Assembly: GCA_016929715.1 (NCBI GenBank) | Contig: JAFGIG010000054.1 | Location: 1 to 38,255 of the forward strand | Reading direction: 5' to 3' | Length of the DNA: 38,255 nucleotides | From: Caldifarciminota bacterium | GTDB taxonomy: Bacteria > SDB-A | In this document: positions 4,372 to 33,933 of the stretch, in pieces | Position numbering within the stretch: position 1 is the first letter of the stretch | How the letters are laid out: each line of letters opens with the position of its first letter | Notes under the pieces: generated by a model | What the model was told of the DNA's origin: nothing | Seen by the model: the letters and a program-made list of their open reading frames with translations, nothing else | Database searches by the model: none | Position numbers and translations under genes: made by a program

Positions 4372-5785
4372 TTTCCGATCCTTTAAGTAACTTTTTTCTC
4401 CTGATCCAAGAGTTCAACCTTGCTCTGTTTTTAGCGTTGAGTTTGAACAACTCGTCTCTGAGGACATCGCTGTTGCCGGGATGTCTTCGGTAATGGTATA
4501 GCACTTCGTGAACTCTGATCAATCTGTATTTTTCAATGACTTTGAGCACCATATCGTAATCCTCGCCGTAATCGCAAAAAAGATCTTCATCGAATAAACC
4601 CATCTCTTGGAGCACCGATTTTTTCCAAACACGCACAGCTCCGGCCCCGTCAACTCTCAGAATATTGTTCACCGAATACTCCTCGTGCTTTACGACTCCC
4701 AGTTCTTCGATGGATTCGCCTTTTTCATCCACCAAATCATAATAACTCACAGCAAGCCCTGCATCGGGATTGTCATCAAGGGCTTGAATCATTTTCCTAA
4801 GCGTCGAAGGAGTATAAAAATCGTCTGAATCGAGCTGAGCAATATATCTGGCGGAGGCGTTTCTTATTCCAAGATTGAGCGCTTTTGATATCCTGTTGTC
4901 CTGTCTTCTTAAAGCTTTTATCCTTCCGTCTTTTTCGGCTAATTTAAGTGCTGTTTCGTATGTCCCGTCGTCTGAAGAATTATCTACTATTATCAGTTCC
5001 CATTCGCCAAAGTCCTGATTTTTGACGCTTTCGACAGCATCTTTCAACATTTCGGATCTGTTATGGACAGGTATTACGACGGCCACTGCCGGAGAACCGG
5101 AAGACTCGACACCTTTTGACGGGGTTTGAGAATTTTCTGACTCGAAAAAGATATTCTGCCTGACCAAAAATTCATCAAAACATTTTTCTACCTGCTGTTT
5201 AAAACTTTCGTCATAGAAGAGGTAGGAAAATCCTCCATATTCTCCTTCCGCAGGGAAAAAAAGCTTATTTTTTAACGTATTGATTTTTTCACGGCTGTGG
5301 AAAGAATATAAAACCTGCGGAATTCTGACTGCCTTTTTTATGTTCCAAAATTTCAAAAGCATGTCGTAATTGTATGCTGACGGGAACCTCGAGTCGAAAA
5401 AACCCTGGTCTGAAACCGCTTTTGTGTTGTATATCCTGAGTTTTCCGAAATTCCATCTTTCCGTCCAATCTCCGTTGTAATCATACAACTCAACTTTTTT
5501 CTGGTTCAATTCATAATCTCCGTATATCATACCCGCGTCATCTTTGCTTGCTTCGCTTTGGGCAACAATTTTAACAAAATCCTCTTTCAAGTGGACGCCT
5601 GGCATTACAACTGAAAACCATTTTCCTCCGGCTTTTTTCAACGTCCTGTTTACGGCTTCCGGCGAATAATCACTAGATTTGAGTATTTCGTAACTATGTT
5701 TATCACCGCAATTTTCTATTGAAAAATACTCACTGTCTCCGGAGAGTTTTTCCGCGATAACAAAACTCAGAAACGGGCTTTTCAA
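4352..5785 (-). CDS. GT2-family glycosyltransferase with a degenerate N-terminal GT-like half
   Basis: The protein has 477 residues. The C-terminal half, from about residue 233, is a complete GT-A domain of family 2: VVIPVHNR start, IIVDNSSDDGT, then the metal/nucleotide-binding DSDD motif at residues 319-322 and the later GEDYDMVLK acceptor-side motif. The N-terminal half (about 40-175) resembles only the second part of the same fold. It has the position of the DxD motif occupied by VVMPGV, then NYDMLLKFWN and a VLYSFHSRE segment that mirrors the VLYHYRRHP of the C-terminal half. The enzyme would transfer a sugar to an unknown acceptor, perhaps a surface glycan. The start is TTG at 5785, overlapping the TGA of the transglycosylase gene as TTGA, with a GGGAG site six bases upstream. 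Confidence 0.88.
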   Translation of the reverse strand: MKSPFLSFVIAEKLSGDSEYFSIENCGDKHSYEILKSSDYSPEAVNRTLKKAGGKWFSVVMPGVHLKEDFVKIVAQSEASKDDAGMIYGDYELNQKKVELYDYNGDWTERWNFGKLRIYNTKAVSDQGFFDSRFPSAYNYDMLLKFWNIKKAVRIPQVLYSFHSREKINTLKNKLFFPAEGEYGGFSYLFYDESFKQQVEKCFDEFLVRQNIFFESENSQTPSKGVESSGSPAVAVVIPVHNRSEMLKDAVESVKNQDFGEWELIIVDNSSDDGTYETALKLAEKDGRIKALRRQDNRISKALNLGIRNASARYIAQLDSDDFYTPSTLRKMIQALDDNPDAGLAVSYYDLVDEKGESIEELGVVKHEEYSVNNILRVDGAGAVRVWKKSVLQEMGLFDEDLFCDYGEDYDMVLKVIEKYRLIRVHEVLYHYRRHPGNSDVLRDELFKLNAKNRARLNSWIRRKKLLKGSENETLLY

Positions 5786-7947
5786 AAAATTCTCCCTTCT
5801 ATTTTTTCATAAATCCAGGCTGTCGTCAGAACTTTCGGCACGTAAAGGCGTGTTTCGGCAAATCCGATATTTGAAATATAATCCTCTTCGCCGCCCGAGC
5901 ATATCCATTTTCTTGCGTTTCCGGGACCGGCGTTATAAGCCGCGAGGGCTACCTCGATTTTTTTGAAATTCGAGAACTGATCAGACAAATATTTGGCTCC
6001 GAACATGAGGTTTGAACTCGGATTTGTGAGAGAATAGGAGCTTATCCCAAGAGAGGCTGCAACGGAGGAAGCTGTAGAAGGCATGAGTTGTGCGAGTCCG
6101 ACAGCTCCTGCCCAGGATTTTATATTCTCGTCGAAAAGGCTCTCTGTCCTCACAAGTCCCTGCAGGATATGGACATCTAATGAAAAAGCGCGTGCCGCCC
6201 TCTCAATCTCCAGCCTGAAAGCCTGGGGGTATATAATGAAAAAAAGATCTGAAGGGCATGAACCTGAAATGCTGTTTTTAACTGAAGACGCGAGGACTAT
6301 GGCTTTGTATCTGTCAAGTCCTGCGTCAGCTGTCTTTGCCAACAGAAATTTTTCACGCTGATTCGGGGACCGGACGGATTCAATTTCTTTTCTCGCCCAG
6401 GTTCTGAGTCCGAATGCATACAGGTATTTAGACCTTTCACAGACCATCGCGGTTTCGTCGCCGACTCGTTGGGTTCCGAATCTCTCTTCAGTGTTTTTTG
6501 AAAAATCAACGGGAAGAGGGACAGCAAAACGCATATTTTCCGAAAGGCGCCTTTCAGACCTTCTCGAGTATTCGCTCAAAGGCAAGGAATTCGCTATTTT
6601 TATCAACAGTTCGCGTGACTCTTCAGTTCTCATTTTAACCGCGGTTGTATATAAAAGAGACGCATTTCGTTCAGTAACTTCGAGAGAAGAAACATATACC
6701 GTGAAATCATTGAGTTCATCTCCGTCAAGGAGTTTTAATATCATCTCGGAAGCCCTGGGGACCATATCGTTTGAATGAGGAGATTCTATGACTTTTTTAA
6801 GAAGCTCAATCGCGACGCTTTTCTGACCGGCGGCGATTTGGAGCTCTGCCAGATAGACAAGCGCGTCGTCATAAAGATTACCGCTCATGAATTCTTTTAC
6901 GAAAGTCGTCCAAACGGCTTCTTCTTCAGCTTTTCTGCCCAGAGTTCTGTAACTCATACCGAGATTATAAAGCGCGTTGCTCCTGAGGGCAGCCGACAAG
7001 GAAGCTCTTTCTAGATGGGAAAGAGCCTCTTGATGCCTCGATGATCTTCTCAAAGCCCGACCGAGTATAAGAGATGCTTCGGCATTTGATGGATGGGAAG
7101 CCACGTAAGGTCCGAGCAGAAGGATTACGCTTTCGTATTTTCTGTCTTTTTCGAGGGATCGTGATCTCGCCAGAGTGTCGGCTTTCTCCAGTTCCGTGAG
7201 GAGGGACCACGCGCTGTCTGACCATGAACTGGAAACCGAGAGAAGTTCAGCTAAATATACCGCGGCAAACTCTGAATCTCCTCGGCTTAAAAATATTTTT
7301 GCCGCAAAAAATTTTTCTTCATCCTCCAGGTAGGCGATTTTGAGATGAGACGCCGCATTATCCATATCTCCCCGCGAGAGGTATATCTGGGACATGTCTC
7401 CGGAAACATGTGCTAAAAGTATTGTGGCGTGTTTTTTACAGAACAGTTCACCTTGAATTAAAGCCGATAGAGTGTCTCCCGTCTGGATATAAGAGGCGAA
7501 AATAAAATAATCGAGGTAGTCTTCTATCACTTTCGGAAAATCCTCCGTGTCCCTTACTTTGATGAATGTTTTCAGCGCGTTTTTATATTCTCCAGCGTTA
7601 AAAAATAGAACTGCCTCCGTAAAATCGCTGTATATCCCCCTGAAAGAATTGTTATGCCTGAAAAGAGGTCCTGCCAGTTCCACAGGAATTTTTTCCCTGT
7701 CAGCTATCCTCGAAGCCCAGAAAAAACTGCTGTCGACAGCGTTCATCCAAAGATACGTCTTCGCGGCTAAAACACAGAATTCAGCCGACGATCTTTCGAA
7801 CTCATTTGAATAAGACAGCAATTCTCTGGCGAGAAGCACGTCTCCCACTGCAAGGGCATTTTCGATTTCGCTCAAAGCGGCGTTTAAAAAGGTCAGAGGA
7901 TAAAATATCAAAAGCGCAGTAAGAACAATTGCAAAAATAATCTTCAT
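5782..7947 (-). CDS. Slt-type soluble lytic murein transglycosylase with TPR-rich N-terminus
   Basis: The start is the ATG at 7947, with AGGAG eight bases upstream; a longer open frame to 8055 runs into the SpoIID-like gene and lacks support. The 721-residue protein opens with a signal peptide (positions 1-22, MKIIFAIVLT onward). It continues with a long alpha-helical superstructure of TPR-like repeats (about 25-420, for example LGRALRRSSRHQEALSHLERA). It ends in a GH23/SLT catalytic domain (about 590-715). The catalytic Glu602 lies in LVRTESLFDENIK, followed by the conserved GLAQLMPSTA and AYNAGPGN motifs. Such enzymes cleave the MurNAc-GlcNAc bond in the periplasm with formation of 1,6-anhydro ends. 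The protein is longer than E. coli Slt70 (about 645 residues). The gene lies 1 bp from the SpoIID-like gene and overlaps the GT2 gene by 4 bp, so all three are co-transcribed. Confidence 0.92.
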   Translation of the reverse strand: MKIIFAIVLTALLIFYPLTFLNAALSEIENALAVGDVLLARELLSYSNEFERSSAEFCVLAAKTYLWMNAVDSSFFWASRIADREKIPVELAGPLFRHNNSFRGIYSDFTEAVLFFNAGEYKNALKTFIKVRDTEDFPKVIEDYLDYFIFASYIQTGDTLSALIQGELFCKKHATILLAHVSGDMSQIYLSRGDMDNAASHLKIAYLEDEEKFFAAKIFLSRGDSEFAAVYLAELLSVSSSWSDSAWSLLTELEKADTLARSRSLEKDRKYESVILLLGPYVASHPSNAEASLILGRALRRSSRHQEALSHLERASLSAALRSNALYNLGMSYRTLGRKAEEEAVWTTFVKEFMSGNLYDDALVYLAELQIAAGQKSVAIELLKKVIESPHSNDMVPRASEMILKLLDGDELNDFTVYVSSLEVTERNASLLYTTAVKMRTEESRELLIKIANSLPLSEYSRRSERRLSENMRFAVPLPVDFSKNTEERFGTQRVGDETAMVCERSKYLYAFGLRTWARKEIESVRSPNQREKFLLAKTADAGLDRYKAIVLASSVKNSISGSCPSDLFFIIYPQAFRLEIERAARAFSLDVHILQGLVRTESLFDENIKSWAGAVGLAQLMPSTASSVAASLGISSYSLTNPSSNLMFGAKYLSDQFSNFKKIEVALAAYNAGPGNARKWICSGGEEDYISNIGFAETRLYVPKVLTTAWIYEKIEGRIF

Positions 7948-7948
7948 G

Positions 7949-9277
7949 TCAAAACTCCTTTTCAAAAACTGACGGATCACCTTTGCAGTTTTGTGGACCG
8001 TCCCCCGTCTTGCCGTGTTTGCATCTGTGAATCTCGTAACAGTTGGCTCTTTCATAACAAGGTCTTTTTTCCTGCCAGATTTTTTCCTCTAAATCTTGAT
8101 ATTCGTATGCCTTGCCTATGCGGCAACCAGGAAAATAATGATCTAATATGAACTCATGGCTGTAACCGGCGACGGCGAGATTCAACGCTCCTATCTGACA
8201 CATTCCAACCCCGTGTCCCCATCCGGCTCCCCTGCATATCCATTCAATTTTTTTGTCGTCAAGAACAAAAGAAGATGACGGAAGAGTTGAGAGCGACATG
8301 ACCTTTCTCAGGTTCAGTTCGCCTGATAGAATGCATTCTCCTTTTTTCCCCACAAACTTCATTTTAACGATCCTGAAAGAAGATGTTATCTCCAAGGGCT
8401 GAGCGGACAATACATCACCTATTTTAAATCCAAAAGAAGCTAAATTACCCGAAACAAAATCCTTTGGGATTGGCATTTCCCATCGAAAATACCGCGAGGC
8501 GTATCTAAATCCTTTGTGGATAGTCTCAGAAGGAGAACAAAGAGCATGGGGAAAATCACTTCCGACGTAATCAGCCAAAGAAGAAATATCCGGTCCTCCA
8601 ATAAGACAATCCCATTTTTCAGGCATATAGGGATGAGGCGATTCCTCTTTCCACGCGTCGCTGAATTTTGATGTCCGTCCTCCGCAGATTTTTGAAAATC
8701 TGCAGTCGGCAATGTCATCCCCGTAATAAAGGAATTCTCCGGATGTCCGGTTTACTGCATCCAGTATTCTGTTTGTCTCACGCAATACGCCCCTGTAGTC
8801 CTGACAATGATCATCAGAACAAAGATCGAATAATTCACCGGCGTGAAGTTTTTTCGACATGCTGTAAGCCGCTGACCTGGCGACAATAGCCTGTGTCATG
8901 AGAAATTCCTCAGGACATTCCGATTTCATCTCAGAGCCCACCACGGAAGCAATATAATATTCAAACGGAAGTTCGTTTATCGCAATGAGACCCGCAGGTG
9001 TGGACACTATTTCAAGCGAACCTCTGAAAGCGTGATCTTCTCTGTGTTCCCAATGGAATGATTCACCTACGATTAATCCTCTTACAACGGAAAATTCGCA
9101 GGGAATATTCACTATGGAACGAAAATACATGCCATTCATCATTATCCTGCCGCCGGAATTTCTGAATTCACAATTCTCGGGAAAACCATTCGCCGCTCCT
9201 TCAGGCAGTTGAATAATTATCTTTTGAGCAGGACCTGCGACTTTTATTCTTATTTTGTTTTTCAAGATATCATTCAT
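7949..9277 (-). CDS. SpoIID/LytB-domain protein (peptidoglycan glycan-strand cleavage family) with Cys-rich tail
   Basis: The protein has 442 residues. Residues about 85-380 match the SpoIID/LytB domain: the active-site region YIASVVGSEM (Glu116), QAIVARSAAYS, DHCQDYRG, CGGRTS and the C-terminal AGWGHGVGMCQIGA motif. In Bacillus, SpoIID is a lytic transglycosylase acting on stripped glycan strands; related LytB proteins enhance amidases. No spore genes are present here, so a vegetative wall-remodelling role is likely. No signal peptide is visible, and an in-frame stop lies four codons before the ATG, so none can be gained by extension. After about residue 400 the protein carries an added Cys-rich tail (four Cys in about 25 residues, including PCYERANCYEIHRC). 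It is 12 bp downstream of the S66 peptidase gene. Confidence 0.85.
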   Translation of the reverse strand: MNDILKNKIRIKVAGPAQKIIIQLPEGAANGFPENCEFRNSGGRIMMNGMYFRSIVNIPCEFSVVRGLIVGESFHWEHREDHAFRGSLEIVSTPAGLIAINELPFEYYIASVVGSEMKSECPEEFLMTQAIVARSAAYSMSKKLHAGELFDLCSDDHCQDYRGVLRETNRILDAVNRTSGEFLYYGDDIADCRFSKICGGRTSKFSDAWKEESPHPYMPEKWDCLIGGPDISSLADYVGSDFPHALCSPSETIHKGFRYASRYFRWEMPIPKDFVSGNLASFGFKIGDVLSAQPLEITSSFRIVKMKFVGKKGECILSGELNLRKVMSLSTLPSSSFVLDDKKIEWICRGAGWGHGVGMCQIGALNLAVAGYSHEFILDHYFPGCRIGKAYEYQDLEEKIWQEKRPCYERANCYEIHRCKHGKTGDGPQNCKGDPSVFEKEF

Positions 9278-9289
9278 ATACTCAACAAC

Positions 9290-10201
9290 TCAGTCTTCTA
9301 CGGCTTTTTCAAGAAACTCGATTTCTCCTCTGTCGGAATCAAGCCTGACGAGCGTTCCAAGAGGCAACGTTATCTTGTCACGGACATGGCCGAAATCAGC
9401 TCCGGTAAGAACAGGGCATTTAAGCGAAGACAGCCTTTCTGCCACGACTTCTTCACAAGTTGGCGGGGCATCCGGACATGAAGAAAACCTTCCTACAAGA
9501 ACTCCTTGGACCTCGTCGAATTTGCCGGCTGCAATTAAATGCGTAAGCATTCTGTCAATTCTATAAGGCGATTCACCTGTATCTTCAAAAGCGAGTATTC
9601 TGCCTTCCGTCTCTATCTCGTAATCGGTTCCTATAGAAGTCTGTATCAAAGAAAGGCACCCTCCAGTCAGCAATCCTTCTCGATTTCCGGATATTATGTT
9701 TTTCCATCCCCCGCAAAAACGATGAATTCCCAAAGATTCACCTGTAGCGGTTTTTTGGAGAAAATTAAACGAAAAATCGGAAAAACTTTTTCCGAAATCA
9801 GGAGAGAGCATTGGTCCGTATAAATTGACAATCCCTTTTTTGAGCAGAACAAGGGAAATCGTCGTCAAATCCGAAAAACCGCAGAACAAAGTTCTGAAAC
9901 CATTCAGGACATCAGAATATAAAATGTCCGGCGCAATTCTCGAACAGCCGTAACCTCCTCTTATTCCTATAATCATACCTGCTTCGGGATCTCCCATAGC
10001 CTTCATCAGATCATCTTTTCTTGTCCTGTCATCGGACGAAAGGTAATAATGATTTTGTCTGAAAAAGTAATTCTCGACTCGGTATCCTCTCAATTCAAAA
10101 TGTTTCACAGCTTCATAAAACCTCTCTCTGTCTTCAAGAGGTCCCGAGGGGAGCACCGGTACTATTTTTGCGTCTTTTCTGAGTTTTTTTGGTTTTATCA
10201 T
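9290..10201 (-). CDS. S66-family LD-carboxypeptidase (LdcA/MccF-like)
   Basis: The protein has 303 residues, the usual length of the family. The serine peptidase family S66 removes the terminal D-Ala from murein tetrapeptides in the cytoplasm during recycling; MccF relatives act on other amide bonds. The residues expected for catalysis are present: Ser110 in the elbow CGFSDLTT, Glu206 in LAFEDTGESPYRIDRML and His272 in GADFGHVRDK. The IRGGYGCSRIA motif at 80-90 and LYGPM at 128-131 are also typical. The ATG at 10201 is the only reasonable start because family homology begins within the first ten residues. It lies just nine bases after the T-run of a hairpin terminator, and no purine-rich ribosome-binding site is visible. 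It heads the run of wall genes 10201-2745. Confidence 0.9.
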   Translation of the reverse strand: MIKPKKLRKDAKIVPVLPSGPLEDRERFYEAVKHFELRGYRVENYFFRQNHYYLSSDDRTRKDDLMKAMGDPEAGMIIGIRGGYGCSRIAPDILYSDVLNGFRTLFCGFSDLTTISLVLLKKGIVNLYGPMLSPDFGKSFSDFSFNFLQKTATGESLGIHRFCGGWKNIISGNREGLLTGGCLSLIQTSIGTDYEIETEGRILAFEDTGESPYRIDRMLTHLIAAGKFDEVQGVLVGRFSSCPDAPPTCEEVVAERLSSLKCPVLTGADFGHVRDKITLPLGTLVRLDSDRGEIEFLEKAVED

Positions 10202-13953: not shown

Positions 13954-15602
13954 AAAGACGTTTTATAGCTGCCGTTTTGATGCTCGCCGCAATAGCGCCT
14001 CTTTCGGCATATAACATAAACGAAATTGAAATCTCGCCCATATACTCCGGGGCGCAGATAACAATAAAAACAGACAGATTGGGCTCATTCAGGGACTATC
14101 AGTCCGGCAACAATATAGTTATAGATTTTTACGGAGCCAACAACAACCTCCGCGCCGCGGCTTTTCCATACGTTGACCGCGGATCAATAGTAGGAATAGG
14201 AATAGCGGATTTTTCATCCAGCGATATCATCAGAATAGTAATCGAGACGAGCGGATTGAAAAGCTATAAAGTCACATCATCTGCCGGTGATCTTGTCATC
14301 GAAGTTGAACCAACAGTGGCTTCCGGAAGCTTCAGCATCTGGAGGGCCACAGAGAGCATATCCAAGCTCGAATACGCCGATTTCTCCTTCGGAGGTCTCC
14401 CGAGCGGCTCTTTTGTCGGTTCGGGCGGACTTATCAGCATGAATCTCGACAAAGCCGACATTACATCAGTTATGAGGGCTATTGCCGACTACAGCGGAAG
14501 GGACATAATTGCCGCTCCGAATATATCAGGGACGGTAACCCTGAGGCTAAACAACGTCACATGGTGGCAAGCTCTTCAGGCTATATGCCACTCACACGGT
14601 CTTGGCATTTCGGAAGAAAATGGAATCCTTCTCGTTGGAAGCCAAGGAGATTTCGACACATGGAGAATGGCTCAGGAGAGCGCTGAGAGGGTCATATACA
14701 GAGTTTACACTCTCCAGTATTCCACCCCGGGCGATATTCAGAATTCTGTTGCTTCTCTGTTGTCCGCAAAAGGGACTATAATGCAGGATTTGAGAACCAA
14801 CTCCATAATAATAAGCGACATAGAATCCCGCCAGTCAGCGGTCCAGGAGATGATAAAAATCCTCGACAAGCCGACTCCTCAGGTGGAAATAGTCGCAAAG
14901 ATAATTGACATCAATAAGGACGCCTCATGGAGCCTCGGCATAAACTGGAGCATAACAGGCGTTGAATTCAGCGGACTAAACACCCAAGGCGAGGTTCACT
15001 GGGGAGATGTGGAGCAAATGTCCACTCCACAGACCGGAATTCTCGACATAAACATCGGCTCCCTGCAGAATTTCGCACAGATAAGCGCCGCTATAAACGC
15101 CATGGAAAGGGAAGGACAGGCCCAGACAATCGCGAGCCCTCATGTCACCGTTCTCGACAACAATTCCGCCACCATACTCGGCGGAAAGAGATTCGGAGTT
15201 CCGGTCAGGGGTTCCGACGGATCCGTCACCATTCAGTTCTATGACGCGGGAACCAGACTCGAAGTGACACCTCACGTCAACGCGAATGATGAAATCACTC
15301 TTGAAATAAAAACCGAACTGTCGGACGTCGATGTAGCTTCGGTTCAGGAAGGGAAACCTATAATAACCACTCATGAAGCGACCACGAACCAGAGAGTCAG
15401 AGACGGAGAGACAGTCGTTCTCGGAGGTTTCGTCAGTGAGTCTGAAAACGAGAGTGAAAGCGGAGTTCCGATTCTCAGGCATATTCCTCTCCTCGGATGG
15501 TTTTTCAAGACAAGAAGCACTACTAAAACTCAGCGCGAAGTCCTCATTTTCATCACCCCACACATCATAAGGCCTAACCTGACGCCGGCTTCGGTTCAGT
15601 AA
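13950..15602 (+). CDS. pilQ: Type IV pilus secretin PilQ
   Basis: The protein has 550 residues, starts with GTG 13950, and has GGGAGGAG just upstream inside pilP. A signal peptide ends near residue 20 (PLSAYN). Then come one AMIN domain (about 22-115, peptidoglycan binding), an STN/N0 domain (about 165-235, DKADITSVMRAIADYSG), a NolW/N1 domain (about 248-320, YTLQYSTPGDIQNSVASLL) and the secretin barrel domain (about 365-545). The barrel domain includes ASPHVTVLDNNSATI, the GVPVRG region, ITLEIKTELSDVD and the closing VPILRHIPLLGWFFK block. It forms the outer-membrane pore for the pilus. It is shorter than proteobacterial PilQ (about 700 or more residues), having a single AMIN domain. The motors, platform and pilins are not in the window. 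Confidence 0.96.
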   Translation: MKRRFIAAVLMLAAIAPLSAYNINEIEISPIYSGAQITIKTDRLGSFRDYQSGNNIVIDFYGANNNLRAAAFPYVDRGSIVGIGIADFSSSDIIRIVIETSGLKSYKVTSSAGDLVIEVEPTVASGSFSIWRATESISKLEYADFSFGGLPSGSFVGSGGLISMNLDKADITSVMRAIADYSGRDIIAAPNISGTVTLRLNNVTWWQALQAICHSHGLGISEENGILLVGSQGDFDTWRMAQESAERVIYRVYTLQYSTPGDIQNSVASLLSAKGTIMQDLRTNSIIISDIESRQSAVQEMIKILDKPTPQVEIVAKIIDINKDASWSLGINWSITGVEFSGLNTQGEVHWGDVEQMSTPQTGILDINIGSLQNFAQISAAINAMEREGQAQTIASPHVTVLDNNSATILGGKRFGVPVRGSDGSVTIQFYDAGTRLEVTPHVNANDEITLEIKTELSDVDVASVQEGKPIITTHEATTNQRVRDGETVVLGGFVSESENESESGVPILRHIPLLGWFFKTRSTTKTQREVLIFITPHIIRPNLTPASVQ

Positions 15603-15622: not shown

Positions 15623-15656
15623 AAACAGGAGGGAGCAATCCCTCCTGTTTCTTTTT
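15623..15656 (+). terminator. Strong Rho-independent terminator of the pil operon
   Basis: AAACAGGAGGGA (15623-15634) pairs perfectly with TCCCTCCTGTTT (15639-15650) around the stable GCAA loop, followed by CTTTTT. It lies 20 bp after the pilQ stop and closes the operon begun near 10894. Confidence 0.93.
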
Positions 15657-15707
15657 GCGATGTTCGATTTCTCTTGAAAAAGGGCTTTTTTACTGTTAAA
15701 AAGTAGC

Positions 15708-16607
15708 ATGAAATATCTCTTTTTATCCTTTGCCGTTTCGGTCTCAAACCTATCTTCATCTTTTTTTTCAAATCTCGATCCTGCACCCTATACGGCTGTC
15801 GAAAGGTTCATTAAGCTTCCCGACACTCTATACGCCCATCAGAGAATATTCATTCCTCAATACAATTTTCAAAATGCACAAGTTTCAATTCTCTATGACG
15901 GTAACATTTTTGACGCGCAGAAAGTAACCGGTGAAAGCTTTCTCACATTACCTTCTCTTTCCGTTGACACTGCCTCTGCGGTGATAGAGATAAAGTCCCG
16001 TTTTATCATTCAGACGGATACGGTAATATATATTTCGGAAAGGTGGCTTGAATTTTTTTTGGATCCGGATCTTCAGTTTTCGATACTCTGGGAAGGATCA
16101 AGACCTCTTGTCTATTCTCTTGTATCGAGCGGAAGAGAACAGTCTCCTACAACAGCGGCTCACACAAAGATATTCGACAAAAAGCCGAGCTCCGAATTTT
16201 ACGACGGAGGCCTTATGAGGTGGTGGATGTCCATTCAGCGCACGCACAATGTAAAAGTGATAACCGACAGCGGAGAAGAGCGTTTTTTTCCTGTCCTCGA
16301 AAACGGCACTCACGCGCCGTTGTCCGGAACTTATCATATGGTCGGAAGGCAGGCAAGCCACGGATGCATAAGAAACCCCCTTGCAAAAGTTTATTACGAC
16401 AATCTCGATGTTGGAGACAGAGTAGAAATGCACTACAGAAATTCAGGGACGTCTTACAGACATGAAAGGATAAACGGCGCATACAGATATATTACATGGG
16501 ATCCGGTCCTATCCGTCGATTCAACTCTTGTCGAATACGTGGAAAAGGCAAGGATGAGAATTGAAAGTGAATTTGGTATACAACGGATGTCAAAGGAGGA
16601 AAAATGA
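15708..16607 (+). CDS. YkuD-type L,D-transpeptidase
   Basis: The protein has 299 residues. The N-terminus is hydrophobic and resembles a signal peptide or anchor (residues 1-20). The catalytic YkuD domain occupies about residues 125-245: His210 and the signature SHGCIRN carry the catalytic Cys220, and the strand DVGDRVEMH follows. Such enzymes make 3-3 peptidoglycan cross-links or attach proteins to murein in the periplasm. The family motif is intact, so activity is expected. No ribosome-binding site is visible before ATG 15708. TTGAAA (15674-15679) and TAAAAA (15697-15702), 17 bases apart, would place transcription at the ATG itself, so a leaderless message is possible but unproven. It overlaps the LpoB-like gene by four bases. 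Confidence 0.9.
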   Translation: MKYLFLSFAVSVSNLSSSFFSNLDPAPYTAVERFIKLPDTLYAHQRIFIPQYNFQNAQVSILYDGNIFDAQKVTGESFLTLPSLSVDTASAVIEIKSRFIIQTDTVIYISERWLEFFLDPDLQFSILWEGSRPLVYSLVSSGREQSPTTAAHTKIFDKKPSSEFYDGGLMRWWMSIQRTHNVKVITDSGEERFFPVLENGTHAPLSGTYHMVGRQASHGCIRNPLAKVYYDNLDVGDRVEMHYRNSGTSYRHERINGAYRYITWDPVLSVDSTLVEYVEKARMRIESEFGIQRMSKEEK

Positions 16608-17179
16608 AAAAAGTGATTTACTTCGCGTTAGTCTTATTTTTGATCACCGCCTGTTCTTCAAGAAGAGTTACGAGAATAGACACTGATCTCGTGACCGACG
16701 TAAGTGGCAGATGGAATGACACAGACTCCCGGCTCGTCGCTCAGAAAATGATATCCGAGTGCCTTGGCGGATCATGGCTTATGAGATACCACGACCGTTA
16801 CGGCGATAAACCGACTGTAATTGTCGGCAGTGTCCAGAACAGAAGCTATGAACACATTGACGCCACCACTTTCATGAAAGACATTGAAAGAGAGTTTGTC
16901 AACAATGGTGCGATAAGGATAGTCGCTTCGGTCTCCGAGAGAAGCGATCTTCGGGACGAAAGATGGTCCCAGCAGGGTTTCGCATCACCCGAGACGAGGA
17001 CTGCTCTGAGAAACGAATTCGGAGCCCAGTTTATGATGATGGGAACAATAACATCAATTATAGACGAGGCGTCGGGCGTCAGAGTCGTCTATTATCAGGT
17101 GGATCTGGAACTCCTCGACATAGAGACAACCGAAAAAGTCTGGATGGCGACAGAAAAGATAAAAAAAGTCATAGAATAG
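16604..17179 (+). CDS. LpoB-like penicillin-binding protein activator lipoprotein
   Basis: The protein has 191 residues. The leader ends in LITAC, giving a lipidated Cys17. The core (about 45-190) matches the LpoB/YcfM-type fold: DVSGRWNDTDSRLVAQKM, TVIVGSVQNRSYEHIDATTF, GAIRIVASVSER and the final YQVDLELLDIETTEKVWMATEKIKK. In E. coli the outer-membrane lipoprotein LpoB activates the synthase PBP1b. Here it is translationally coupled (ATGA overlap, AAAGGAGG site) to an L,D-transpeptidase, so it may serve a different murein synthase; that is inference. The next gene follows after 12 bp. Confidence 0.85.
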   Translation: MKKVIYFALVLFLITACSSRRVTRIDTDLVTDVSGRWNDTDSRLVAQKMISECLGGSWLMRYHDRYGDKPTVIVGSVQNRSYEHIDATTFMKDIEREFVNNGAIRIVASVSERSDLRDERWSQQGFASPETRTALRNEFGAQFMMMGTITSIIDEASGVRVVYYQVDLELLDIETTEKVWMATEKIKKVIE

Positions 17180-17191
17180 ATTTAACATTAT

Positions 17192-18508
17192 ATGAAAAAG
17201 AACAGACCAAGAGAACTTTTTTTAGCCTTTGCGACTCTCTCTATCTTCTCATGCGCATCGAGCAAGACAAGGATGGAACCTCTGAACAATATGTTGTATA
17301 GAGGCGAATATTCAAGGGCTCTTTACTTATACGACAGTCTCGGCATCAAGGAAGAAAACGCAGTCTCTCTCGATTTCGCCAACAGAGGACTGCTTCTTCA
17401 TTTAGCCGGACTCAATGAAGAGAGCAACCGGGAACTCGAATTCGCCGAAAGATATATGGATAGAATTCTCAAAGACAATTTCAAACAGATAGTTTCATCA
17501 TACCTGATCAATGAATACTCTCTCCCTTATTCCGGCGAGGACTATGAAAACGTCATGGTCAATTTCTACAAAATGTTCAATTATGCTCTTTTAGATCTGC
17601 CCGAAGACGCTCTGGTCGAGTGCAGAAGAATAGATTACAAGCTCAATCTTCTTAAAGACATGTTCGAAGGCTCAACAACATATACCGACGACGCGTTCTC
17701 GAGATACATGGCCGGTATATTTTACGAGAGTCAGGGACTTTACGACGATTGCTTTATAGAATACTATAAATCATACATTGCTTACAAAAATCTTTACGCG
17801 GTTCATTACTCTACACCTGTCCCCTCTTCTCTTTTAAGCTCCCTGAAAAAAGCCGCAGTGGCGACAAGAAGAGAAAATGATGTTCCTTTTCTTTTCGAAT
17901 CCAGTGACTACAGCGTAAATTTTCAGGATACATTCTGCGAATTTATATTCATACTCGAAGCCGGACAGCTTCCCTATAAAGAAGAGGCCGTGTCATACGC
18001 CACTCTCGATGACGGAAAAATCTTATCAGTAGCTCTTCCGGTTCTGATACCAGCCGTAACATCTGTGTCGGGAGGCACCCTTAGAACTACGGAAAATTAT
18101 ACTGAACTGGAACTCGTCGAAAATCTCGGAGAAATCGCCCAAATAAGCCTCAAAGACAGAGGAGGCAGAATACTCGCAAGGGCAGTGGCAAGAGCCGGAT
18201 TAAAGTATCTCGCTCAGCAAGCCGGAGAAAAATTAGGTGACGAAATTTCAGACGATAAAGATTCGGTTCTCGGATCAGTTCTATCCGGCATAATAGGTAT
18301 ATTTTCCGCGGCCACGGAACACGCCGACCTCAGGAGCTGGGCGCTTTTGCCTGATAAAATCTATCTCGGAAGAATATATTTCAGTCAAAACGACAATGCC
18401 GTTAGAGTATCGGTTAGAACGAGAACAAGAGGAGAATTTTCTTACGCATATCCCGTAGAATTTAAAAGCGGGGGAACCGTTTTCGTCAAAGAGAGAATTT
18501 GGTTCTAA
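17192..18508 (+). CDS. COG3014-like lipoprotein, possible LpoB partner
   Basis: The protein has 438 residues. The leader ends in LSIFSC, giving a lipidated Cys21, just after a basic N-terminus (KKNRPR). An alpha-helical TPR-like region (about 30-215) contains LYRGEYSRALYLYDSLG and NVMVNFYKMFNYALLD followed by ALVECRRIDYKL, patterns I associate with the COG3014 family of uncharacterised lipoproteins. The C-terminal part (about 240-438) is beta-rich, with a Gly/Ala-rich helix (ILARAVARAGLKYLAQQ). In gammaproteobacteria COG3014 genes lie beside LpoB-like genes, and that arrangement is repeated here. The function is not established. No clear ribosome-binding site precedes the ATG. The gene converges on the hydrolase gene, with 15 bp between them. 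Confidence 0.75.
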   Translation: MKKNRPRELFLAFATLSIFSCASSKTRMEPLNNMLYRGEYSRALYLYDSLGIKEENAVSLDFANRGLLLHLAGLNEESNRELEFAERYMDRILKDNFKQIVSSYLINEYSLPYSGEDYENVMVNFYKMFNYALLDLPEDALVECRRIDYKLNLLKDMFEGSTTYTDDAFSRYMAGIFYESQGLYDDCFIEYYKSYIAYKNLYAVHYSTPVPSSLLSSLKKAAVATRRENDVPFLFESSDYSVNFQDTFCEFIFILEAGQLPYKEEAVSYATLDDGKILSVALPVLIPAVTSVSGGTLRTTENYTELELVENLGEIAQISLKDRGGRILARAVARAGLKYLAQQAGEKLGDEISDDKDSVLGSVLSGIIGIFSAATEHADLRSWALLPDKIYLGRIYFSQNDNAVRVSVRTRTRGEFSYAYPVEFKSGGTVFVKERIWF

Positions 18509-25156: not shown

Positions 25157-26437
25157 TTACTGACTCACTCCGCCTTTCGATTTCAGCAATTTCTGTATCT
25201 CAGTGTGGCCGGAAAGTTCGGCATAGTAAAGAGGAGTGTGCTGTTCGTCGTTTTTAGCATTTACGCTGGCTCCTGCTGAAATCAGCTCTTCGACTATCTC
25301 TGTGTATCCGTATTGCGAAGCGTAGTGCAGAGCTGTCCATGATTTAACTGTCCCTTTGTTGACGTTCGCTCCGTTGGCTATAAGCACTTTAACCGTTTCA
25401 AGATACCCCTCTGTGGCGGCTATATGTACAGGAGTAACTCCCGAATCACCTCTGGCTACGCAATTGACATCAGCACCAGACGATATCAAAAGAGAGATTA
25501 TTTCGTTTTCACCGTTATAGGATGCCAAATGCAGCGGTGTCCAGTAACCGACTACAATGTCGTCAATAGATGTCTTTCCTTCGGCGTCGATTTGGGCTCC
25601 TGCTCCCAAAAGAGCTTTAACTATATCCGCGTAACCTTCCCTTGCAGCGTAGTGGAGAGAAGTCCATCCGTTTTCTTTTTCCGCGTTGACGTTTGCACCT
25701 TTTGAAATAAGTTCTTTGACGACAAGAAGATGACCGTAATTAGACGCCATGTGCAAAGGCGTCACGCCGTATAAATCAGAAATATCCACTGAAGCGCCGT
25801 TTCTAAGCAGTTCCTGAACCGCGATAAGATTGCCGTATTCCGAAGCGGCGAAAAGAGACGTCTCTCCGAATTCGTTTCTCGAATTGACGTTTGCTCCTCT
25901 TTCAGTAAAAAGGACTATGAGCTCGTAAAATCCCTCTCTTGAGGCGAGATGGAGCGGCGTGTCACCGGAATCTCCCCATACATGAGAATTCACGTCAGAA
26001 CCCTTGTCGAGGAGCATTTTTGAGATTTCATAACGACCGTTATAAGCCGCGAGATGAAGAGGAATCCAATATCCGGCAGTGTTAGCGTCAATTGAAGTTT
26101 TGCCCCTGAAAGATATATCCGCGCCAGAGTTGATCAAAAGGGTGACTATATCGCTGTAACCTTCCCTTGTCGCGTAGTGAAGAGGAGTCCAACCCCACTC
26201 GTCAGTGGAATTGACATCGGCACCTGCAGCTATCAGTTCTCTGACAATGGACAACTCACCCTGATCGCAAGCCATTCTCAGAGCGTAACTATATCTTTCC
26301 TTACCTTCAGAATATGCGGACGAATCATATAAATCGTCTATCCAAGTCTGCGTTTCCTGACTTATTCTTACACCGCAAGAAAAAACTACTATTGACATGA
26401 CCGGAAGGATAAACTTGAAAGACAATAATCCCTTCAC
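25157..26437 (-). CDS. Ankyrin-repeat lipoprotein
   Basis: The start is GTG 26437, with AAGGAGG six bases upstream; an ATG 54 bases further out has no such site. The 426-residue protein has a leader ending in VVFSC, giving a lipidated Cys21. About eleven ankyrin repeats of roughly 30-37 residues follow, with the TPLHxAAxxGxxxIVxxLLxxGAxVN consensus. Two repeats carry a longer loop with GKTSID and GYW. The repeat order suggests that an older block of five repeats was duplicated (see the finding). Ankyrin repeats bind proteins; in a lipoprotein exposed in the periplasm or outer membrane they would act as an adaptor. The partner is unknown. A TATAAT box is present at 26474-26479 on this strand with a weak -35. 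Confidence 0.88.
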   Translation of the reverse strand: MKGLLSFKFILPVMSIVVFSCGVRISQETQTWIDDLYDSSAYSEGKERYSYALRMACDQGELSIVRELIAAGADVNSTDEWGWTPLHYATREGYSDIVTLLINSGADISFRGKTSIDANTAGYWIPLHLAAYNGRYEISKMLLDKGSDVNSHVWGDSGDTPLHLASREGFYELIVLFTERGANVNSRNEFGETSLFAASEYGNLIAVQELLRNGASVDISDLYGVTPLHMASNYGHLLVVKELISKGANVNAEKENGWTSLHYAAREGYADIVKALLGAGAQIDAEGKTSIDDIVVGYWTPLHLASYNGENEIISLLISSGADVNCVARGDSGVTPVHIAATEGYLETVKVLIANGANVNKGTVKSWTALHYASQYGYTEIVEELISAGASVNAKNDEQHTPLYYAELSGHTEIQKLLKSKGGVSQ

Positions 26438-26473
26438 TGAAGACCTCCTTATAGTTTTAATGTATATTTTTGA

Positions 26474-26502
26474 ATTATACAGCAAATCCAAATAAAAAAT
26501 AA
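26474..26502 (-). promoter_or_regulatory. Candidate promoter of the ankyrin lipoprotein gene
   Basis: On the minus strand a perfect TATAAT (plus 26474-26479) lies 17 bases downstream of TTATTT (26497-26502), a weak -35. It sits upstream of the AAGGAGG site and GTG start and is divergent from the hisC-remnant promoter. Confidence 0.4.
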
Positions 26503-31439: not shown

Positions 31440-33926
31440 CTAGTTTTCTCTTCTGTCTTCGTATTCTCTTCTGTCCTCTTCCCCGGCTTTTCCAGTCTCG
31501 AGAATTTTTCTGAAATCATCTTCCTCTATCAGTTTTCTCCTTTGCTCTGTCCTCTTATCCGACAAGTCTTCAGCGATTTCGACAGAAATAATTTCGAATG
31601 TTTCGCCTTCCAGCTGGATTTTATCGCCTTTTTTCTTGCCTATAATTTTTTCTCCAATCGGAGACAGATAAGAAAGAACTCCTCTATCAGGATCGGAATC
31701 CCATGGACCGAGTAAAGTAATTTTTCTTTCTTTTTCACCGCTTTTCAGTGAAACGGCGGTGCCTAATGATGCCTTCTCTGTGTCAATTTTATCTTCGTCA
31801 ATTATTTGGGTGCCCAAAAGCTCTTTTTCAATTTGGGCTATTCTTGCCGTCAGTTCACCGTGTTTGGCTCTCGCGGAATGATATTCAAAATTTTCAGACA
31901 AATCCCCCTGAGCCGCCGCTTTTTTTATCTCTTCAACAATCGCAGGGAGTTCTTCGTAGAGCAGTTTATCTCTTTGAGACTGCTTGCAAAGATATGCTTT
32001 TTTTGAAACGTAAACCACATCACCTCCTGTTAATTGTAATTCTTCGGACACGACAATTTCCGGTCTTATCCTTATCAATTTAGTTCTTATATCGCTTTCC
32101 TGAAGCTGGTTGAAAAGAGAAGATTCGCTCACCCAGTTCAAAATAAGTTTTGCTTGAGGCAAAAGCGCACCGAGGACTGCTTGACGAATTATCTTATAAT
32201 CATCATTTTTCAAAACATCTCTTGATGCAGAAATTATCTTTCTGTTTCTTTCCGTGTTTTCGGTGGAATGCTTTTCTGCTGTTTTGAACAACCATTCTGT
32301 CATAGTCACTTCAGAAGGGCGATTAGGATTCTTATAGTCTTTTAATGATTTTTCTACAGCCCATAAAAGGGCTTCAGGTGATTCGTAAGGCTTTTGGAAA
32401 ACCATATCCATATAGTCCTCTCTTCTCCCTGAGGACAAGAAATCCCTGAAACCAAAAGCTTTCGCAAAAAAAAGCTTTCTTTTTAGCTTTTCTTCATCTT
32501 CAGAAAAAACCATTATTGTTTTAACGAATTTTTCCCTGAAATCATTTTTTACATTACTTTCAACAACCGATAAAATATCGTCTTCGCTCATTTTAGGCAT
32601 TTTAATGTCGGAGCCTATACTTACACCGATTTTACTGAATTCCTGAGCAAGAAAATAATATTTGACCTTTGTCAATGGAGTCAATTTCGCAAACTTTTTT
32701 TCTAGGGCTGAAAAATATTCTTCTATCTGCCCGAGTGTTTTTTCAGTCAATCCTTGCTTTTTAACTGACCCGAGAAAAGCATAAACCTGGTCGTATTGAT
32801 CTTCCGGATCTTTTTCAGGAGAAAAATCAACTTCAAGATTTTCATCCGTATTTTTGGGCTCTGCTCTGAGCGAAAACTTTCCGCCTTTTCCCCCTGAGGT
32901 GTAATCTATATAAAGATCTCTCTTGAGTTTCTCTCTGGTTGTGTTCCACCAGGAATCTTGTATGTCTAGGTCCTTAGATATATTTTTTTTCAGATCCTGT
33001 CCATGCGCCTGTCCTCTAAAACTTCTTAAGTAGCTTTTAACTACAGAAACCGGATCTTTTTCAATCCGGGATATAAGTTCTTCGTGCCTTGTTTTTGTAA
33101 TTACCGACCAGTGATTGTCGGGCAAGGGATAGACGATTTTTTCAACTCCGCTTAAATTCATTGCGTGTCCGTTTTTTTTTTCGAAGTCAATTATTATTTC
33201 GTCCTGGTATGGAATCATTTCAGCTACTCTTCCAAGTCCCCACGAATCGTGCATTACCCATTTTCCTTCATCGTATTGCATGAATTCGTGTATTTTATCT
33301 AAAGTTGGAGCCATGTCCTTCCTTGAGTTGATATTTGTCTCTTCTAAATAATACTCAAGGTGCGGGCAGTCAGAATATCTTTTTCTTAGACAGAACAAAA
33401 CGTTTTTCCTGACATCTTCAGATGGATTAATCTTCCAGCAAAGCACGAGAATTTCTTCCATTTCTTCCCAAAGATTTGATGCCGCATACTTTTCAAGAGA
33501 TCTTATAATCCATTCAAATGCGGTTTTGTTTTTACCTGAATTTAGAAGCCTTTCAGCCCAATGAAATATTTTTTCGTGTTTGAACCATTCGCCGGAGATT
33601 AAATCATCGAAAAACTCATCGGCTTCCGTATCCCTTTTTTCCGATATCAACTCATCTATGACATATTCGATCATAGTCAGGGTTTTCCCTTTCAACTCCA
33701 TCAGTCTAATCGCATGATCGGCTTTTTTAACTTCATTCTCCAGAAGTTTTTTAAGAAAGAATTCTTCTTGCTTTTTATCTTTAACACACTTGTAATAATC
33801 GGCGAGAAATCTCAGGCAAGCCCTGTTTTCTTCGGTTTTCAGAATATTTTCACAAAACTCTTTTGCTTGGTCGAATTTATTCTCTCTCTTCAGCTCTTCG
33901 ATCTTTTCCGTAATTTTTTCTTCCAT
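31440..33926 (-). CDS. greA: Long-form transcript cleavage factor GreA with N-terminal extension
   Basis: The protein has 828 residues with the ATG at 33926, which has a GAGGTGG site; GTG 33932 is an alternative. The C-terminal part (about 640-795) is a complete GreA: an N-terminal coiled coil with the catalytic tip GDLSENFEYHSAR (the acidic Asp and Glu that act at the polymerase secondary channel are kept) and the FKBP-like domain with LGPWDSDPDRGVLSYLSP. The preceding 640 residues are mostly helical, TPR-like, with a small beta domain near 215-270 (KWVMHDSWGLGRV, IIIDFEKKNGHAMNLSG) reminiscent of Tudor/CarD-like modules. A charged tail closes the protein. Ordinary GreA has about 158 residues. 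Such long forms are known from spirochaetes and chlamydiae. Confidence 0.93.
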   Translation of the reverse strand: MEEKITEKIEELKRENKFDQAKEFCENILKTEENRACLRFLADYYKCVKDKKQEEFFLKKLLENEVKKADHAIRLMELKGKTLTMIEYVIDELISEKRDTEADEFFDDLISGEWFKHEKIFHWAERLLNSGKNKTAFEWIIRSLEKYAASNLWEEMEEILVLCWKINPSEDVRKNVLFCLRKRYSDCPHLEYYLEETNINSRKDMAPTLDKIHEFMQYDEGKWVMHDSWGLGRVAEMIPYQDEIIIDFEKKNGHAMNLSGVEKIVYPLPDNHWSVITKTRHEELISRIEKDPVSVVKSYLRSFRGQAHGQDLKKNISKDLDIQDSWWNTTREKLKRDLYIDYTSGGKGGKFSLRAEPKNTDENLEVDFSPEKDPEDQYDQVYAFLGSVKKQGLTEKTLGQIEEYFSALEKKFAKLTPLTKVKYYFLAQEFSKIGVSIGSDIKMPKMSEDDILSVVESNVKNDFREKFVKTIMVFSEDEEKLKRKLFFAKAFGFRDFLSSGRREDYMDMVFQKPYESPEALLWAVEKSLKDYKNPNRPSEVTMTEWLFKTAEKHSTENTERNRKIISASRDVLKNDDYKIIRQAVLGALLPQAKLILNWVSESSLFNQLQESDIRTKLIRIRPEIVVSEELQLTGGDVVYVSKKAYLCKQSQRDKLLYEELPAIVEEIKKAAAQGDLSENFEYHSARAKHGELTARIAQIEKELLGTQIIDEDKIDTEKASLGTAVSLKSGEKERKITLLGPWDSDPDRGVLSYLSPIGEKIIGKKKGDKIQLEGETFEIISVEIAEDLSDKRTEQRRKLIEEDDFRKILETGKAGEEDRREYEDRREN

Positions 33927-33933
33927 TACCACC

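Follow-up and report, generated by a model that had tools for sequence, protein, structure and literature searches.

LpoB of Escherichia coli is, according to PMC9593243, about 145 Å long and crosses the periplasm to reach the UB2H domain. Upon failure of lipopolysaccharide export LpoB, the glycosyltransferase of the penicillin-binding protein (PBP) PBP1B, LdtD and PBP6a are reported to form 3-3 cross-links jointly (PMC6428754; reviewed in PMC12729407), and LpoB as well as UB2H are described as restricted to enterobacteria by Typas et al. (PMC3060616). Here we describe a locus of a Caldifarciminota bacterium in which the gene of an LpoB-like lipoprotein is placed between those of a YkuD-type L,D-transpeptidase and of a further lipoprotein. 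It occupies positions 15708 to 18508 of contig JAFGIG010000054.1 (assembly GCA_016929715.1), the whole 38,255 nucleotides of which are referred to as the window. The first-pass annotation of this DNA had suggested that the two lipoproteins may control 3-3 cross-linking or a synthase cooperating with it, of which it knew no description; the published E. coli machinery just mentioned speaks against this novelty. The analysis reveals that the LpoB-like protein and its partner lipoprotein constitute an old module which is independent of YkuD and that, on this evidence, the operon in which ykuD leads the pair is specific, among the genomes examined, to the family of the window genome.

Three open reading frames (ORFs) on the plus strand, found where they had first been placed, make up the locus. 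The first, ykuD (15708-16607), codes for 299 amino acids with an extra N-terminal domain and the motif H202-X14-SHGCIRN; its YkuD domain (PF03734) scores 29.3 bits in Pfam, above the cut-off of 23.4 (E 1.5e-6). The second, lpoB (16604-17179), codes for a lipoprotein of 191 amino acids with a short tether, whose match to LpoB (PF13036) reaches 117.5 bits with a cut-off of 22.3 (E 5.8e-34). The third (17192-18508; 438 amino acids) encodes a lipoprotein for which the first-pass annotation had proposed the label COG3014-like.

Outside the family the pair was followed in two surveys. In Survey A, for which an LpoB alignment was run against genome contigs, the 80 top-ranking loci out of 523 confirmed ones were read, so that it is biased to close relatives of LpoB. 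To offset this bias Survey B was added, in which an LpoB profile matched 80 of 386 genomes not selected by LpoB similarity; 77 loci from 76 non-family genomes were read, a second LpoB copy in G107 not being counted separately. Judged by sampled exact 60-mers, three of these 77 loci are shared with Survey A, while the real overlap may be higher. Within the best 80 loci of Survey A a relative of the third protein adjoins LpoB in 78 (with a smaller profile, 74 downstream and three upstream), the exceptions being L106 and L094, whose contig ends after 63 nt. The corresponding figure of Survey B is 69 of 77, made up of 63 partners downstream, four upstream and two, L228 with overlapping frames and L047 with frames joined through N, which were counted by inspection rather than by the script rule. 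Here the exceptions are L044, situated at a contig end, and L226, L227, L231, L237, L244, L248 and L262, in which no match was obtained. Altogether, 144 of the 154 distinct non-family loci have both genes side by side. The titles of records carrying the pair name Bacteroidetes, Zixibacteriota, Gemmatimonadetes, Fibrobacter, Spirochaetes, Cloacimonadota and other groups. An apparent fusion of both proteins in G045 (L047) was rejected as an artefact of two frames joined through a run of N. The reversed order, with the third-protein gene first, is seen in L092, L111 and L122, which are Balneolaceae and Gracilimonas loci. Genes of one single cluster directly follow the pair in 14 of 73 loci compared (L042, L047, L062, L066, L067, L074, L086, L090 and others), and an LPP20 domain is present in the two members of this cluster that were tested. 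A search of genome contigs with the third protein alone retrieved no relative; the LpoB alignment as query succeeded. Among the papers listed, none describes the pair by title or displayed abstract, the term "COG3014" likewise yielding none.

The first-pass annotation had named a wide survey showing no linkage of YkuD with the pair elsewhere as the result that would overturn its proposal, and this is the outcome obtained. In 143 of the 154 distinct loci the sequence extends 1 kb or more upstream of LpoB (76 of 80 in Survey A and 69 of 77 in Survey B, minus two shared), and in none of these 143 non-family loci does YkuD adjoin the pair. Hence, the pair works without a neighbouring YkuD and does not generally serve an adjacent L,D-transpeptidase. 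Control of 3-3 cross-linking is thus not supported as a general function of the pair; as a local arrangement within the family it may hold and has a precedent in E. coli. We would like to note that the initial YkuD detectors were replaced, as the profile control of 9/9 was circular and profile and motif each recovered only LdtB out of four E. coli L,D-transpeptidases. The final detector, applied to 157 loci, combines a profile built from twelve YkuD proteins (five E. coli Ldt, DpaA, the G031 protein and family members) with the motif [ST].GC.R. When each control was left out in turn, the profile recovered nine of the twelve at E <0.001, while LdtD reached 0.071, DpaA 0.43 and the C121 protein of the window genome 93; the strict motif fits ten of the twelve, and motif or profile (E up to 10) finds eleven, missing the C121 protein. 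A very divergent YkuD could escape. The one real YkuD encountered among the 157 loci, that of G031, is encoded on the opposite strand, at a distance of about 7.2 kb from LpoB. It is one of 26 ORFs fitted by the motif and the only YkuD among the 13 of them scanned with Pfam; the remaining 13, not scanned with Pfam, either overlap with the genes of the pair themselves or are at least 1.1 kb away from them. Of nine weak profile matches (E 2.9-9.8; no Pfam scan), that in L113 is 0.9 kb away from the third gene and the others are at least 1.9 kb away from the pair. In E. coli K-12 (L264, 5639-6280 and 12413-13375) a distance of 6.1 kb separates lpoB from ldtC, which is on the opposite strand.

The family sample comprises four genomes from two genera: that of the window (G000), two further members of its genus and one of another, designated G001, G002 and G003. 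The order YkuD, LpoB-like protein, third lipoprotein is present in all four, in G003 with an ORF for a GNAT acetyltransferase inserted between lpoB and the third gene. Compared with the window proteins, the three relatives show whole-protein identities of 67, 69 and 49% for YkuD, 87, 90 and 76% for the LpoB-like protein and 63, 74 and 50% for the third protein. The ATGA overlap of ykuD and lpoB was confirmed at 16604-16607. Yet the spacing of these genes, -4 nt in G000, amounts to 12, 14 and 28 nt in the other three genomes, which means that the overlap is no conserved trait. The original description of YkuD as a first gene coupled by ATGA therefore stands for its leading position throughout the family and for the overlap in G000 only.

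Upstream of the locus pilQ ends at 15602. The gap to ykuD contains a hairpin resembling an intrinsic terminator (15623-15650, plus strand; stem of 12 pairs, T-rich tail) and a promoter-like element, TTGAAA-N17-TAAAAA (15674-15702, plus strand), which was spotted by eye and whose last base is located 5 nt 5' of the ykuD ATG. A GC-rich hairpin with T-rich tail is present in this gap in all four family genomes and so is, on inspection of the alignment by eye, the promoter-like motif in similar form and at the same position. A consensus promoter scan did not list the motif, in which the final T is absent from TAAAAA. On the 3' side of the third gene a metallo-hydrolase gene follows on the opposite strand. 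Since the hairpin and the promoter-like motif precede ykuD and the oppositely oriented gene follows the third one, the natural reading is that ykuD and the two lipoprotein genes form a three-gene unit. In each of the four genomes the -10-like element ends 5-6 nt upstream of the ykuD start codon (window 15697-15708; L038 7068; L039 4723; L040 2292); so close to the ATG, it would give a leaderless or almost leaderless mRNA.

The active-site consensus of YkuD enzymes is His ... [S/T]-x-G-C-x-R. H202 and S217-H218-G219-C220-x-R222 are invariant in the four YkuD proteins of the family operons, and the motif is also kept in three family paralogues, two of G002 and one of G003 (L151 7488-8573; L152 7550-8557; L153 6733-8142). 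ORFs resembling metK, a sensor kinase and a response regulator, named on sight from their N-termini, adjoin these paralogues. Residues 109-262 of the window YkuD are 92, 88 and 67% identical to those of the three relatives, residues 24-108 only 36, 45 and 27%. Because the catalytic half is so much better conserved than the N-terminal domain, the active site is, as judged from these sequences, under constraint. A search of the PDB with the YkuD alignment returned nothing relevant and no relative by sequence. The genome of the window contains three YkuD matches, and a profile of the window subfamily detects, among 386 genomes and at E up to 1e-8, solely members of its own family. The window YkuD is probably a cell-wall cross-linking enzyme, its activity being predicted.

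The alignments on which the models of the two lipoproteins are based were drawn from 57 (A4) and 46 (A5) of the 80 loci of Survey A, selected by completeness, a recognisable lipobox and hand thinning. In both proteins the lipobox-type cysteine, C17 of the LpoB-like and C21 of the third protein, is invariant. The AlphaFold model of the LpoB-like protein, built with 46 relatives, reaches a predicted local distance difference test score (pLDDT) of 89.6. It clearly resembles E. coli LpoB most (4q6z; Z 13.6, root-mean-square deviation 4.0, 117 residues aligned), followed by Salmonella LpoB (Z 12.0) and the nuclear magnetic resonance structure of E. coli LpoB (Z 11.3). Of other families CsgG and PelC attain Z of about 8.9; GNA1162, CsgG, FlgT and PelC, which are also among the Foldseek matches, span Z 7.6-8.9. 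By sequence the profile finds LpoB in the PDB at E 0.028 only, an unrelated chain ranking higher with E 0.019. From C17 to residue 40, where the part of the model matching 4q6z begins, the tether measures 23 residues, and in the relatives the cysteine precedes the SG.WN motif by 16-23 residues in all printed values except for one misplaced start. In E. coli LpoB, in which the matching part of 4q6z begins at residue 78 and the first cysteine is at 20, the tether amounts to about 58 residues. Because of its short tether, the periplasm-spanning mode of E. coli LpoB appears, on the basis of the model, unlikely here unless the partner lipoprotein extends the reach. The equivalog model TIGR02722 gives 79.1 bits, which is below its NCBIfam cut-off of 110.55. 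This score, the tether and the lack of a UB2H domain on the synthases found in the family (see below) identify the window protein as one with an LpoB fold which is not an E. coli-type LpoB.

Neither Pfam nor NCBIfam gives a match to the third protein at E up to 1. Its model, built with 57 relatives (pLDDT 92.0), consists of a TPR-type (tetratricopeptide repeat) helical domain, residues 20 to 240 approximately, and a subsequent beta domain into which long helices (312-375) are inserted. The N-terminal part matches TPR proteins with Z up to 14.1, which, as these are helical repeats, indicates nothing beyond a shared arrangement. Among the matches listed, no solved structure clearly covers the beta domain.

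Four to five Omp85 matches per genome indicate that the family is diderm. Its wall synthases of the GT51 type are of two kinds. In G001 the sole GT51 protein found is complete at 664 amino acids and has no transpeptidase domain; in its congener G000 there is one such protein, as far as assembled likewise without a transpeptidase domain, which runs to the contig end. In both, the glycosyltransferase domain is situated near the C-terminus and retains EDGSFFSHRG. Such proteins of about 650-700 amino acids display no Pfam match over their first 450 or so residues (L146 1-1960; L147 3266-5260; L150 2342-4429). No bifunctional class A PBP was found in G000 or G001, where the G000 genome is 94.67% complete and its GT51 protein meets a contig end, so that a class A PBP may be hidden in a gap. 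A bifunctional class A PBP occurs in G002 and, along with the transpeptidase-less kind of GT51 protein, in G003. In these two genomes the class A PBP is followed by a gene for which G000 and G001 yield no match, and this fits a loss without proving it. Transpeptidase-domain matches of G000 are located on two contigs; one is split over two frames with an internal stop, which looks like an assembly frameshift. UB2H does not score above its cut-off anywhere in G000 to G003, and none of the five GT51 proteins yields a UB2H match (E limit 0.1). Three partial UB2H matches (20.9-21.6 bits; frames of 687-1070 amino acids) were rejected, as they are neither GT51 proteins nor located on the same contigs as these.

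We tentatively favour the view, to us possible but somewhat short of probable, that the family has placed an exported YkuD in front of an old module of an LpoB-fold and a TPR/beta lipoprotein. YkuD would probably be exported and co-transcribed with the two-lipoprotein module. The two lipoproteins would most likely act jointly on the periplasmic side of the outer membrane, forming a unit which both docks and regulates wall enzymes, and YkuD made together with them could introduce 3-3 cross-links or otherwise remodel the wall near the outer membrane. It may work alongside the GT51 glycosyltransferase, which lacks its own transpeptidase domain in two of the four family genomes; in G000 and G001 the L,D-transpeptidase could thus serve this protein. 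In favour of this view are the constant gene order with the hairpin and the promoter-like motif ahead of ykuD and short gaps behind it, the conserved catalytic half of YkuD, the pairing of the lipoproteins elsewhere, the LpoB fold, the transpeptidase-less GT51 proteins of G000 and G001, the diderm envelope and the E. coli precedent. It is quite unlikely, in our estimation, that all these components, i.e. the UB2H-free lipoprotein pair, the dedicated L,D-transpeptidase and the transpeptidase-less GT51 protein, share one complex in which YkuD cross-links under control from the outer membrane. Several observations weigh against a functional link of YkuD and the pair. Besides its absence from the pair in all 143 non-family loci, additional copies of the YkuD subfamily, two in G002 and one in G003, reside at other loci. 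pilQ likewise keeps its place in the family genomes, as do the metallo-hydrolase gene, grpE and dnaK in the three genomes where the contig extends further; with flanking genes equally syntenic, family synteny is by itself weak evidence. The operon is kept equally in G002 and G003, which both possess a bifunctional class A PBP, and is therefore not tied to a transpeptidase-less GT51 protein, which weakens the strongest hint at a local role of the pair in 3-3 cross-linking, the GT51 protein devoid of a transpeptidase domain in two of four genomes. Finally, no DD-carboxypeptidase of families S11 or S13, a possible source of tetrapeptides, is matched in G000, other carboxypeptidase families not having been searched; S11 gives one match each in G001 to G003, above the cut-off only in G001, and S13 is matched only in G003.

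In a rival explanation, an ordinary periplasmic L,D-transpeptidase is transcribed ahead of an unrelated lipoprotein pair, both being chance neighbours held together by family synteny. The lack of YkuD beside the pair elsewhere, the equal conservation of pil genes, metallo-hydrolase, grpE and dnaK in G001 and G002 and the restriction of the ATGA overlap to one of four genomes argue for it, while the terminator-like and promoter-like elements which part ykuD from pilQ in all four genomes and the narrow range of the ykuD-lpoB gaps (-4 to 28 nt), retained even in G003 where the acetyltransferase gene follows lpoB, argue against it; we consider it possible, if somewhat short of probable. The name LpoB would be misleading if the pair were an element of outer-membrane assembly or export of the CsgG/PelC/GNA1162/FlgT kind instead of a regulator of wall synthases. 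The short tether (16-23 residues in all printed values but one), the lack of an above-cut-off UB2H in the family, the Foldseek matches to those four families (Z 7.6-8.9) and the gene with LPP20 domain in two tested members, following the pair in 14 of 73 loci, are in line with such a role. LpoB is nevertheless clearly the best structural match (Z 13.6 versus 8.9), and we regard this explanation as unlikely. Similarly improbable appears to us that YkuD, instead of forming 3-3 cross-links, attaches an outer-membrane protein or a lipoprotein to the peptidoglycan or releases it from there, with the pair helping to tether the outer membrane to the wall. Enzymes which anchor or detach such proteins are known according to the review PMC12729407, and lipoproteins are encoded by the neighbouring genes. 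The sequence, as used here, does not tell cross-linkers from anchoring enzymes, though; no substrate tail or motif was identified, none having been looked for, and the YkuD alignment has no relative by sequence in the PDB.

With respect to the surroundings of the locus, the genes encoding PilN and PilO were identified with Pfam, while the names pilM, pilP, pilQ, grpE and dnaK were assigned on sight. Three genes for wall remodelling are found nearby on the minus strand (5782-10201), coding for an SLT lytic transglycosylase with TPRs, a SpoIID-domain protein and an S66 LD-carboxypeptidase. Further downstream the window encodes a protein of 444 amino acids consisting mostly of ankyrin repeats (25157-26491) and one of 830 amino acids which ends in a GreA/GreB elongation-factor domain (31440-33932).

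An LpoB fold with a steady lipoprotein partner in many phyla, a short tether and a family without UB2H imply that the annotation "PBP activator LpoB" is no functional evidence in such genomes. The pair points to a module for which we found no description in the literature, and the YkuD operon of the family is the natural place for asking whether this module concerns wall cross-linking. Like the PBP1B/LpoB-LdtD-PBP6a wall-repair machine of E. coli, the locus brings together an LpoB-fold lipoprotein and a YkuD enzyme, which may serve a GT51 protein. It differs in that both are encoded in one operon with a third lipoprotein, that the LpoB-like protein has a short tether in a family without above-cut-off UB2H, and that the searches found no S11 or S13 enzyme in G000 and no bifunctional class A PBP in either G000 or G001. 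The lpoB gene of E. coli K-12 is flanked by ycfL and thiK, and the 20 kb around it yielded no relative of the third protein. With enterobacterial LpoB (TIGR02722; 4q6z) the window protein shares the fold (Z 13.6) and the lipid-attachment cysteine, and every one of the 47 proteins in alignment A5 is matched by TIGR02722 (E up to 0.001); the sub-threshold score (79.1 versus 110.55 bits), the tether (about 23 versus about 58 residues) and the presence of a partner lipoprotein gene set it apart. The widespread unnamed pair consists of the same two lipoproteins, mostly in the same order, with no adjoining YkuD gene found. LpoP of Pseudomonas aeruginosa is, as described in PMC7267771, a TPR-containing envelope lipoprotein like the N-terminal half of the third protein, acting as a single activator whose disordered extension binds UB2H. 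In contrast, the third protein of the window carries an added beta domain and is accompanied by the gene of an LpoB-fold partner.

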